The notes beneath the pieces were generated by a model. It did not search any database. It was not told where the DNA came from and was given only the letters and a program-made list of their open reading frames with translations. From contig NC_087381.1 of assembly GCF_963675165.1 (NCBI RefSeq), positions 2,356,001 through 2,420,000 of the forward strand: a stretch of 64,000 nt of DNA. Direction: 5' to 3'. Numbering within the stretch: the first letter of the stretch is position 1; each line of letters opens with the position of its first letter. Shown piece after piece: positions 9,401 through 45,964 of the stretch. This DNA is from Halichondria panicea. Its lineage: Eukaryota > Porifera > Demospongiae > Suberitida > Halichondriidae. The position numbers and the translations under genes were made by a program.

Positions 9401-12400
9401 ACACACAAGATGTGGCCTTGGTCTGTACTGCAAGTAAGTGAATAGTGTGACATTGCTACAGTGAGTATGTGTTTATACAGTCATGAAAGGAGCTCGGTTT
9501 ATACGTACATCATATTATTGTGAATCATACATTGTATAGCTATGTATAGACTTTCATTTGTATTGATCACTGTATTCAGATGGAGACTTGAGGCTGGTAA
9601 GCAACTCAGGCCAAACAGGAGGCTCCTCTGGCAGACTGGAGATCTATTACAATGGACAATGGGGGGCAGTGTGTGATGACAACTTCAGTCCAAATGATGC
9701 AAGGGTGGCTTGTCGTCAACTAGGGTTCTTAACCTACAGTCAATACGGAACAGTTGGAACGCTAGGGTCAGTGTATAAGCTCATATTAATTAACTAATTA
9801 ATTACACGGCATGCATCACTGAAATACTCATATTGAAGAGACATGATTCAAAATGATTACGTTATTGCATGCACGTGTATATAGTTTCAATGAAATCCTA
9901 TCGGACTCTCCAACATGGCTGGACGAGATTCGTTGCTTAGGAACTGAGGGCAGACTCATTGATTGTCCAGCTAACACTATCGGAGTTGAAGATTGTACCC
10001 ACACACAAGATGTGGCCTTGGTGTGCAGTTTTACAGGTAAGAGTTGCATAACTCTAATCCATTACAATGTAATGAACATGTACATGCAGCCGAGTGGCCT
10101 ACTGCTGATAGAATCAAAATACAGGTTGGGTAAAATGCACAGTTTATAAGAATTCACATTAAAAATGATACCTTTGGACAAGTAAATGATTGAAGTAGCA
10201 GTTCTACAGGTAAGAGTTGCATAACTCTAATCCATTACAATGTAATGAACATGTACATGCAGCCGAGTGGCCTACTGCTGATAGAATCAAAATACAGGTT
10301 GGGTAAAATGCACAGTTTATAAGAATTCACATTATTAAAAATGATACCTTTGGACAAGTAAATGGTTGAAGTAGCAGTTCTATATGGGTATATAAGCATA
10401 ATTCTGTATAGCAAAGTCATTGTATATATATACGTTTAGATCATGTTTGCCATAAATACTACAATTTGATTGGCTAAAGGAAGGTGTTCTATCCAATCAT
10501 GTACTTACTTAGAAAATCATGTACTTCACTTAGAAAATAATGTAGCAAAGATTAGATAAGAACATTCAAATCTAATTGGCTAAATACTCATAGTTGCTAT
10601 GATCTAAAATGCTTAGACACTGTTTAGGAAGTTTCCACATGATTTAGAAGTCCTCAGGGCTAGTAGAACCCTCACTGCATTCGGGATACTACAACCAGCC
10701 CTTTGGGCTTCTAAATCATGTAGAAACTCTAACTATTATATAGAATAACTAACAGCAATACAAATTTGCGAAAAAATGTACATCATGTGTCTTACTAGAT
10801 GGGCGTGCCCGTCCCCAGCCATAAAATGGGAGGAAGGGTTTCAGCCCTATCTAGCATTCGTTCTGCTGCAGAAAATCATGCAGCATCAATCAGATTGCAG
10901 ACTGCTTATGTAATACATTTCAGCACCAATCAGATTGTATAGTTCTTGTGTAATGCATTCCTTGGCTTCCCAGCTCTTCCCCTTCTCTACAGCAAGCTGA
11001 GCTCTGTGGTTAGAGGCGCGGCTAATAATAACTATATTCATAGTTAGTACGGGAACAGCAGAACAAATGCTAGATAGGGCTGAAACCCGTCCCCCCCTTT
11101 TATGACTGGGGACGGGCACGCCCATCTAGTGTTTACCTGTATATAGAATGTTTTTATAGGGTATCATACAATATTATTGAAGTAGAGGGGGGAAATAAAG
11201 GCACAACAGAGTGTGTCGCCGACTATAGGGGAATCCGGGGCTGGAAAATGTTGTTAATTAACGTGGTGTTGGTGAATTCTGGTGAGTTTTGAGGTTGCCT
11301 TTGAATTCTCACTCGGTACAACTATATACCATAAATTTTTGAACAATAACGACTTTAATAACAATGCCAGATAAAAATACAAATTAACACCATAAACTGC
11401 CTCTCCTATCTTCAATCTGAGTGGGTATGATTTCTGTGTCGGCTATCCAATTATATGAAAGGGAGTGATTTGTCATGCATGATGCCCCATACATGACAGG
11501 TGCATGTTGGCACATAACGTTTCCTCACACACTGCATGTGCATGCATGGATGCATGCATGATTGTGGATGTGGTATTTTGTGTGCATGGGACTTGCATGG
11601 TTATAGCAAATTTAGCTTGGAATGTGCTATTTTGATACTTATTAGTCTGTCATGATTATTTGTGGTTCTCTTGCAAAAGGGCTGTGTTTATATAGCATGG
11701 ATATAGTTATTGTATATGTATGATTGATTATACACTATATATACTCATATGCCAATGAACCTATACTTAACCCGTTTCAGATACAACTGGCATCATCATT
11801 GGATCTGCTGTTGCGGGGACAGTAATTGTGTTTGTCGCATTGACTTGCTTTATAGTTTGTTGTGTTGGGCTCCTCAAACGAAGGCAGTTGAAAGCAAAAC
11901 AACTTACAATGATGTAAATTATGCCGTAATAATGCACTTAGACCATGTATGCAGTATACAAAGCCATAGAAACACTAAAACTCTATGTAGGTATGATCTT
12001 GACGCATTGCCTAATAATGCTATCCGTCCCTCGCTGTCGACTCCTTTCAATAACACACGACAATCGACCCTGAGTTCCACCACCAACAAGATGAACAGGA
12101 CAGAGTTGCCGCCGGAGTTGGTACCACGATTTCCAACAGCCAATGCTTGTACGTATACGTTACATGATGATGAGTGTTAATTACGAATGCATGCATAATT
12201 TTGATTTTTAAGCATTATTGCATGGTATACATGTAGTATAATTTTAAACAATTGCTGGGCCTGTACGAAGCAAGCCACATGCAACTTCATGATTTGGTCC
12301 AAATGTATGTTACTTTTTCGCTGCATGCATGGCCTATAATTATTAGCTATATACATGTATGTATGTATATATGCAGCTATAATATAATTATAGTCAGTCA

Positions 12401-45063: not shown

Positions 45064-45964
45064 GCGAGTCACTAATGAACAGAGCAACTAATGTGATGAG
45101 AATTGAACTAACTAACAATTATCTCAATGATAGATTGATTAAATTTTGTTATAGATTAATGACTATTATAGATTAATGACTGCAATGCAGCATGCAACAA
45201 CTTTTACTGTGACATTAATTTTTATTGTTTTGCTCACAAGTTTATAGCTAGTACAAAAAAACTGCTGTACATAACATAGAAACACATGATATATATAAGA
45301 AGTCAGATATACACATGCAGCAAGTGAATACTACACTGGGAAAAAGCGTGCTATAATTATATGCGACCGTTTTAGTGTGCTCACCACACTTCATTTTTAC
45401 AGTGTAATCATGAAACGGCACTATAGATTTACACCTCTACTTTTATCATAATTATAATTACACGCAACCTTACATCTTCTTCATAAGACTTTTGTTTCTT
45501 TGGTTCCTGCATGGGTAAACAAACATGCATGCCATGCATGTGTGTATATAGCAGGTGACCGAGCTGGTGACCTGGAGATAGGTATAGTGGGGATATACAT
45601 AATTATATAGGTGGGAAAACATAGTTGACAGACACACTACATCACCAGTAGGAGGGAGCTCGAGGCTGTATTCTTAACACGTGCACATGCACACACACAA
45701 CTTGCATGAGAGTTGTCTGGAGGGATGATCGGAGGAGCACAGTTTCTTCCAGCTATACGTATAGTTTCGGCAATGGAAAACCATGCTCATTCAATGGGGT
45801 GGGTGTCATGGCAACATAAGGGTCTACGCGGCCATAGTATTGTACAACCTGCATGTTCTCGCTCAACATCTGTGACAGTGGTTGTGGGGATAATCTGTAT
45901 TATACAGAAGCTGCATGCTTCACTATACTGCATTATAATAAGTGTAATTATTATAGCTTTGATC
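45064..45964. other. 3' flank of SRCR kinase 2
   Basis: To about 45480 it matches the 3' flank of gene 1 (15522-15919 and 16389-16415), and is probably 3' UTR and downstream sequence. After that it is unique. Open frames in 45713-45960 have no recognised domain. Confidence 0.5.

Follow-up and report, generated by a model that had tools for sequence, protein, structure and literature searches.

How could two neighboring receptor genes be nearly identical in the half that signals and clearly different in the ectodomain? This question is raised by a window of 64,000 nucleotides from Halichondria panicea (contig 5, positions 2356001-2420000; the genome comprises 131 Mb in 39 contigs). A preliminary description of this window had noted two SRCR kinases with a near-identical signalling half and diverged ectodomains, and had proposed that a single event age could not explain both halves.

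A tandem array of four SRCR receptor kinase genes

A DNA search with the kinase half of one of these genes (c1) showed that contig 5 carries four full-length tandem copies, each on the plus strand, over about 124 kb. The two genes described first, c1 and c2, are both SRCR kinases, but the count was too low: two more copies, U and D, are located outside the window, with kinase halves starting at positions 2323682 and 2438960 of contig 5, respectively. All four copies were compared, including the DNA 10 kb upstream of each of U and D.

The exon plan is common to all four copies and consists of 18 exons, of which eight encode the four SRCR domains, one the TM, one the juxtamembrane (JM) part and eight the kinase and the tail (Table 1). 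The structures are gene models from genomic sequence, with the exon boundaries placed by eye on c1 and transferred to the other copies via the alignment; in each of the four copies, AG precedes all 18 exons and GT follows all 17 non-terminal ones. The frame from SRCR1 to the stop is open in c1, c2 and U, with 886, 887 and 883 codons, respectively (the count for c1 includes the partial first codon and the stop), and there it joins the eight SRCR exons, the hydrophobic TM exon, the JM exon and the kinase exons. In D, SRCR4 contains a 4-bp frame shift. A scan upstream of SRCR1 found no signal exon.

The c1 protein contains four Pfam SRCR stretches, and its kinase matches PK_Tyr_Ser-Thr (1.6e-76; 257.5 bits vs the cut-off of 23.1). 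Motifs that we take to be the catalytic motifs of kinases (GxGxx and others) can be read in the sequences of c1, c2 and U. With a kinase domain, an ectodomain and a predicted TM helix on one polypeptide, c1 and c2 are predicted receptor tyrosine kinases (RTKs). The C-terminal tails of both end in TTI, which is compatible with a class I PDZ ligand.

AXL (UFO), MER and MET were the most frequent among the best 60 of 760 PDB matches of the c1 kinase domain (for example, UFO 5u6b, 1.5e-62, and MET 9c1r, 2.9e-60), and the top one of these 60 was a 678-residue chain labelled EGFR (9p9u, 5.7e-96), so that no single RTK subfamily is favored; the likeness to AXL, MER and MET concerns the kinase domain.

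SRCR domains of group A are spread over more than one exon, and each of the four domains is split over two exons in all four copies. The domains of c1 have 24 cysteines, six each, and six cysteines define group A (PMC10855680); in both respects the SRCR domains of the array fit this group. A DNA search with the c2 ectodomain (window 35000-40500) yielded, among the matches listed and besides repeats, all four members of the array plus a single other stretch (71%; contig 5, position 5882424). The gene content, with many SRCR exons as well as GABA-B-like and collagen-like ORFs, would suit a sponge.

Table 1. Features of c1 and c2, in positions of the window.
Feature	Position	Strand	Remarks
c1 gene	3476-15521	+
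c1 SRCR1	3476-3906; exons 3476-3674, 3758-3906	+	AG/GT in 4/4 copies; Pfam SRCR
c1 SRCR2	3966-4421; exons 3966-4152, 4273-4421	+	splice sites, Pfam SRCR
c1 SRCR3	6751-9433; exons 6751-6937, 9285-9433	+	splice sites, Pfam SRCR
c1 SRCR4	9580-10036; exons 9580-9766, 9885-10036	+	splice sites, Pfam SRCR
c1 shared tract (intron 5' of TM, TM, JM, kinase, 3' UTR, 3' flank)	11595-16417	+	interrupted by element 15918-16390
c1 TM exon	11781-11913	+
c1 JM exon	11991-12148	+
c1 tyrosine kinase and tail	12422-15521	+	open frame, Pfam PK_Tyr_Ser-Thr
c1 kinase/tail exons	12422-12523, 12641-12724, 12836-13053, 13174-13286, 13767-13932, 14030-14172, 14990-15149, 15501-15521	+
Youngest c1=c2 tract (c1 coordinates)	13151-15653	+	longest agreement run 14190-15653
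TIR element in c1 shared 3' flank	15918-16390	+	20-nt arms, TA at both ends
Element of ~1.34 kb with inverted ends, c1 3' flank	16771-18108	+	>30 further near-full copies among the matches listed, 92-99% identical
c2 gene	35154-45063	+
c2 SRCR1	35154-35593; exons 35154-35349, 35445-35593	+
c2 SRCR2	35658-36118; exons 35658-35844, 35970-36118	+
c2 SRCR3	37354-38285; exons 37354-37540, 38137-38285	+
c2 SRCR4	38643-39095; exons 38643-38829, 38944-39095	+
600-bp TIR element in c2	39761-40361	+	present in U and D, not in c1; >30 further copies among the matches listed
Repeat insertion of ~545 bp, c2 only of the four copies	40687-41231	+	adjoins diverged TM/JM block; many partial copies elsewhere
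c2 diverged TM/JM block	41232-41633	+	TM exon 41292-41430; JM exon 41511-41668 extends past block
c2 tyrosine kinase and tail, 8 exons	41950-45063	+
c2 3' UTR and flank common to c1	45064-45487	+	nearly identical in D; 11% from U

Divergence between the ectodomain and the kinase side

Distances were calculated for the 7598 columns ungapped in all four copies; poorly aligning blocks (c1 4448-5593, 6331-6624, 6990-8923 and 10121-11147) were left out of the counts. On the ectodomain side, the noncoding distances of c1 to c2, U and D are 15.4, 15.2 and 15.2%, respectively (n = 2289; 353 differences to c2), and its SRCR exons are 4.4-4.7% away from theirs (n = 1350; 60 differences, 4.4%, to c2); the mutual noncoding distances of c2, U and D are 0.5-2.3%. 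To the right of c1 position ~11594, the copies are mostly 0-5% apart, and in c1 12149-15300 all four are about 0-3% apart. Differences confined to c1 are densely spaced up to c1 11593, within the intron upstream of the TM exon, and just eight more c1-only sites follow, up to 15930. There is thus a break in divergence, and c1 is the copy that changes class.

The pair c1-c2 is closest in 13151-15300, with one difference at 1527 noncoding and one at 582 coding sites (2/2109 ungapped sites together); either copy has 36-50 noncoding and 8-9 coding differences from U or D in this stretch. Compared with 15.4% in ectodomain noncoding sequence and 4.4% in SRCR exons, these values bear out what had been described for c1 and c2, that is, a near-identical signalling half, diverged ectodomains and SRCR exons that changed more than the kinase half. 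Over all kinase exons, c1 and c2 have no synonymous and five nonsynonymous differences.

The contrast between the ectodomain introns and the kinase-side noncoding sequence of c1 and c2 is highly significant (Fisher test, p = 4e-110), and it persists when the count is limited to columns over 10 bases away from any gap (104/802, 13.0%, vs 11/2583, 0.43%; p = 2e-54) or over 20 bases away (12/220, 5.5%, vs 11/2423, 0.45%; p = 5e-8). Alignment noise near gaps may be a partial source of the ectodomain figure of about 15%.

In the control pair c2-U, the noncoding distance is 2.30% on the ectodomain side and 3.74% on the kinase side, while that of c1-U drops from 15.26% to 3.75%; this supports the earlier claim that one event age is unable to explain both halves. 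With 12149-15906 summed as the right side, the left and right values are 2.3 and 3.7% for c2-U, 2.3 and 2.4% for c2-D, and 0.5 and 3.3% for U-D, respectively; c2-D dips to 1.4% in 12149-13150 and to 0.5% in 15301-15906. Both halves give the same unrooted topology of the four copies by distances, (c1,c2|U,D), and the case for conversion therefore rests on branch lengths and not on a changed tree. In the tree of kinase exons, c2+U+D has support of 82/79 and a c1+c2 clade is not rejected (p-AU 0.34), so that this tree decides nothing.

Mosaic tracts within the kinase half

Site patterns and windows revealed further tracts beyond the two blocks. In 11724-12113 the deviating copy is c2, whose TM and JM coding sequence is 5.6-6.9% and whose small intron is 7.8% away from the other three. 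The TM and JM coding sites differ at 20/288 positions between c1 and c2 (with length differences of 9 and 3 bp), at 19/288 between c2 and U and at 7/288 between c1 and U, which makes c2 the odd copy. Near-identity from the TM or JM exon onward, as stated in the preliminary description, hence applies to the kinase part and not to TM and JM. In 13180-15300, c1 and c2 agree with each other and differ from U and D. The outlier in 15301-15906 is U, at 11%, while c1, c2 and D agree at 0.5-0.8% noncoding. The TM exons of a related array on contig 6 were considered as donors of the odd TM/JM block of c2 and judged unlikely, having only ~42-67% protein identity to the TM exon of c1.

As a check of the conversion type, the order of sites was shuffled 10000 times within the kinase half and the longest agreement run was scored. 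The c1=c2 run of 58 polymorphic sites (14190-15653) was reached in none of the shuffles (maximum 42), and the same holds for c2=D (15327-15821, 42 sites, 0/10000) and U=D (11724-12016, 29 sites, 0/10000); shorter runs were observed for c1=D (20 sites, 2/10000 shuffles), c1=U (9 sites, 48) and c2=U (6 sites, 145). This permutation takes sites as exchangeable and so demonstrates clustering, not what caused it; that the clustered agreement stems from exchange is indicated by the control pairs and by the fact that introns are as alike as exons.

Edges of the shared tract

The left edge of the c1 shared tract lies in homologous sequence, within the intron that precedes the TM exon. Its right limit had been placed at ~15919, where near-identity ends, but this position is occupied by an inserted 473-bp TIR element: past the element, 29 bp match c2 and D (28 identical), and homology ends at c1 16417 and c2 45487. 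Beyond 16417, the c1 flank has no detectable homology to the flanks compared (4.7 kb of c2 and 1.5 kb each of U and D). The right tract edge is the point where homology is lost, and the original edge is not visible because the flank is full of insertions.

Two further candidates were set aside. In c2, U and D, the DNA separating SRCR4 from TM has an open, Thr-rich stretch that resembled a stalk exon lost by c1 but did not fit in splice phase, and the 600-bp element of these three copies could not be taken as a shared derived insertion, since the gap in c1 exceeds both edges of the element and could equally be a deletion in c1.

Origin of the mosaic

We consider ectopic gene conversion the best reading and assign it a probability of about three in four: c1 would combine an old ectodomain with a TM-kinase-3' half (~11595-16417) from the U/c2/D lineage, and a newer tract would be common to c1 and c2. 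The c1 gene would be an old copy, the entire 5' part of which drifted away from its siblings before conversion overwrote the half from TM to the 3' flank with a U/c2/D-lineage copy. A later event would have rendered c1 and c2 almost identical over ~2.5 kb; then shorter tracts would have left c1, c2 and D with one 3' UTR type and U with another, and c2 would have retained or acquired its odd TM/JM block. The most likely recipient is c1, because only c1 passes from outsider to insider and the c2-U and c2-D distances are not lower on the kinase side. Gene conversion of the kinase half had already been proposed in the preliminary description, and we infer it in preference to crossing over. One observation counting against it is the right edge at the loss of homology, which is not required of a conversion tract inside longer homology.

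Such an edge would suit unequal crossing over or cassette duplication, a reciprocal or duplicative event in which the 5' part of an old SRCR gene would have been fused to a TM-kinase-3' cassette duplicated from a sibling to give c1: the shared block and the flank homology both stop at 16417, and the left breakpoint in the intron 5' of TM is close to the point where ectodomains change on contig 6. However, the c1 intron is homologous, albeit drifted, up to 11594, and so the ancestor of c1 probably already had a TM side, and the additional shorter agreement runs between copies would in any case speak for conversion. We regard a fusion or cassette duplication as unlikely; it stays a rival because the c1 flank may never have been homologous.

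An assembly artefact, with the kinase half copied or collapsed from one copy onto the other, could produce a pair with just two differences in 2109 sites over 2 kb, but it is very improbable given that the copies differ in flanks, in insertions on both sides, at scattered sites in 12149-13150 and in small lengths, and that all four are found on a single 7.6-Mb contig. Kinases are usually constrained, but a slow-evolving kinase half without any exchange can be practically dismissed, since introns and UTR match exons in identity, so that protein constraint is not the cause of the kinase-side identity, and since c2-U is no slower on the right (noncoding 3.7% vs 2.3% on the ectodomain side), so that neither low local mutation nor selection caused the drop in c1.

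Divergence and selection in the SRCR domains

We calculated dN/dS by the Nei-Gojobori method over the four SRCR domains, with small counts. The values for c1-c2 are dN 0.038 and dS 0.069 (ratio 0.55); the other ratios are 0.66 (c1-U), 0.68 (c1-D), 0.82 (c2-U), 0.89 (c2-D) and 0.10 (U-D). A ratio above one over the four domains, as a sign of diversifying selection, was found in none of the six pairs, and the earlier suggestion of a receptor family that varies its recognition part is not supported by these values. For SRCR1 alone, dN/dS is 1.27-1.87 in four of the six pairs, each on few changes, the values 1.27 and 1.87 resting on 3.5 and 1.5 synonymous differences, respectively.

The SRCR exons of c1 have a synonymous divergence of ~6%, compared with ~15% in introns (20/317 vs 349/2289, p = 4e-6) and 7-28% in the adjoining 100 bp of intron; for c2-U, the synonymous (2.9%) and intron (2.3%) values are in agreement. 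Exon-sized SRCR conversion, synonymous constraint or intron alignment noise could contribute to the mismatch in c1. The simple two-part story leaves it unaccounted for, which also counts against gene conversion as the best reading.

Related kinases with other ectodomains on contig 6

The region 2304.7-2367.5 kb of contig 6 was read, minus gaps of 1 kb and 6.9 kb. It contains kinase exons of eight related loci (for g4, only the last exons were found; g8 is on the minus strand), and exons K1-K7 have 73-94% protein identity to c1. No SRCR was found in 1277 ORFs by a profile that finds all eight SRCR exons in c1. The upstream DNA of six loci was compared and is of two types: g2, g3, g5 and g6 have exons in common, and g1 and g7 have another stretch in common. 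Domains were found in three of six ORFs scanned: an ORF of g3 is similar to Ig-like domains (Ig_3, E = 1e-4, under the Pfam cut-off), and g1 ORFs match FN3 with 32.6 bits (cut-off 25) and Sushi with 31.1 bits (cut-off 20.7). The g6 locus has both Ig-type exons (80-89% to g3 and g5) and a stretch 95% identical to one of the two Sushi-like exons of g1 and 84% identical to the other, scanned one.

In their kinase exons, g1 and g7 (differences 20/396 and 18/411) are not more alike than g1 and g5 (13/396 and 9/411), but an AU test did not reject g1+g7, the loci with the same ectodomain type, as one kinase clade (p = 0.0755). A phase 1 start as in c1 is possible for the TM exons of g1, g3 and g5, along with other candidates. 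Many further related kinase exons are located on contigs 12, 1, 11, 4, 5 and others, among the matches listed in a protein search.

Judged from predicted exons and domains, a related kinase half is joined to putative Ig-like or FN3/Sushi ectodomains, and swapping apparently also occurs, at greater depth. Ectodomain exchange, which had been offered beside conversion, was not observed between c1 and c2, both with four homologous SRCR domains, but finds its place in the contig 6 array. More tentatively, and with rather more doubt than confidence, a TM-kinase cassette could be shared throughout an RTK superfamily of this genome, with conversion homogenising it in arrays and with SRCR, Ig-like and FN3/Sushi ectodomains swapping or drifting across a common phase-1 intron 5' of the TM exon.

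Relation to known systems and biological meaning

The component parts of this array are of known kinds. SRCR expansion in sponges is documented (PMC4772301; PMC8242945), and 158 of 296 sponge SRCR genes were reported in tandem arrays (PMC10855680). The SRCR genes of Amphimedon queenslandica, with 14 PK_Tyr_Ser-Thr domains counted, resemble the array described here in that SRCR domains occur with tyrosine-kinase-type domains within a gene set, in tandem arrays and in six-cysteine group A domains; however, the main text of that paper contains no instance of "gene conversion" and does not appear to report a kinase-half exchange (PMC10855680). Shuffling of RTK ectodomains has been treated (PMC8662651), and a sponge RTK of Geodia cydonium has an Ig-like ectodomain, like some of the contig 6 relatives and unlike c1 and c2 with their SRCR ectodomains (cited in PMC12018476).

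Conversion that homogenises one receptor half while the other diverges is reported for paired immune receptors of vertebrates, namely for CD300A/CD300C (PMC12447643) and for CEACAM1 and its relatives (PMC2832619), but in these the ligand-binding part is homogenised and signalling differs, so that the polarity is opposite. Conversion was also reported in the Arabidopsis OAK tandem cluster, which comprises plant receptor-like kinases and not animal tyrosine kinases, and where variation was shown among accessions (PMC3136440); the present comparison is within one genome. In mostly open-access literature, the titles and abstract openings among the matches listed included no report of kinase-half conversion in animal RTK arrays. 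What differs in the present case is the polarity, that is, a homogenised signalling half in an animal RTK array: conversion would preserve the signalling half here, while the ligand-binding half is preserved in the immune-receptor papers on CD300 and CEACAM.

The mosaic itself is real and statistically strong; its functional meaning we infer in a working model. Each gene would encode a membrane receptor, the SRCR array would bind a surface ligand, and clustering would activate the tyrosine kinase; with a uniform signalling half, separately drifting sensors would feed one pathway. The intron before the TM exon would, if homogenisation of the signalling half is general, provide a concrete hinge for seeking swaps in other sponge genomes, and kinase-domain trees of such families can misdate receptors. 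The cassette reading, if true, would be the mirror image of vertebrate paired receptors, a recognition repertoire with a common output. If homogenisation of the signalling half is general, it would explain how an early-branching animal lineage could hold many receptor kinases that differ in their sensors but share an output.

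Divergence along the array genes

Between positions 3476 and 10036 of the window, the siblings of the receptor tyrosine kinase gene c1 in the tandem array (c2 and, outside the window, U and D) are markedly nearer to c1 in the SRCR exons than in the introns between them, and this contrast holds even at synonymous sites. In the block of transmembrane and juxtamembrane (TM/JM) exons, the other three copies differ from c2 by about 6–8%, in coding and noncoding sequence alike, and the repeat insertion at which this block starts is found only in c2 among the four copies. A 4-bp length difference shifts the reading frame of D in its last SRCR domain; this may mean that D is a pseudogene, that the site is polymorphic, or that the assembly is wrong here.

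Features in the window, on its contig (C5) and on other contigs
Feature	Location	Strand	Remark
TM/JM block, diverged in c2	window 41232-41633		starts at repeat insertion
SRCR4 second exon of D	C5:2437215-2437370		4-bp length difference
GABA-B-like gene copy	window 21082-24913	+	about 86–92% alike
GABA-B-like gene copy	window 49159-52796	-	about 86–92% alike
GABA-B-like gene copy	window 57007-60851	-	about 86–92% alike
Collagen-like ORFs, GxY repeats	window 46731-48254	-	ORF reading
Short-period repeats, tandem and inverted	window 31001-31882 and 53247-53457
Mosaic gene g6	C6:2338907-2347870		Ig-type exons, Sushi-like stretch
Further kinase exons, same family	C12:4552070-5575927; contigs 1, 2, 4, 5, 11		among matches listed

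Neighboring genes

The kinase genes are flanked in both orientations by copies of a gene whose ORFs, with an N-terminal part and 7TM, presumably resemble a GABA-B-type receptor; the three copies are about 86–92% alike. Adjoining the 3' flank of c2 are ORFs that we take, from their GxY repeats, to be collagen-like; the repeats are followed by a non-collagen end containing cysteine.

Related kinases elsewhere in the genome

In the related array on contig C6, where a search of 1277 ORFs found no SRCR stretch, g6 is a mosaic gene: its Ig-type exons resemble those of neighboring loci, and one further stretch matches a Sushi-like exon from locus g1 at 95% identity. Among the matches listed, kinase exons of the same family are numerous beyond both arrays, and some pairs with equal scores (for example, C12:5260186 and C12:5307826) look like recent duplicates.
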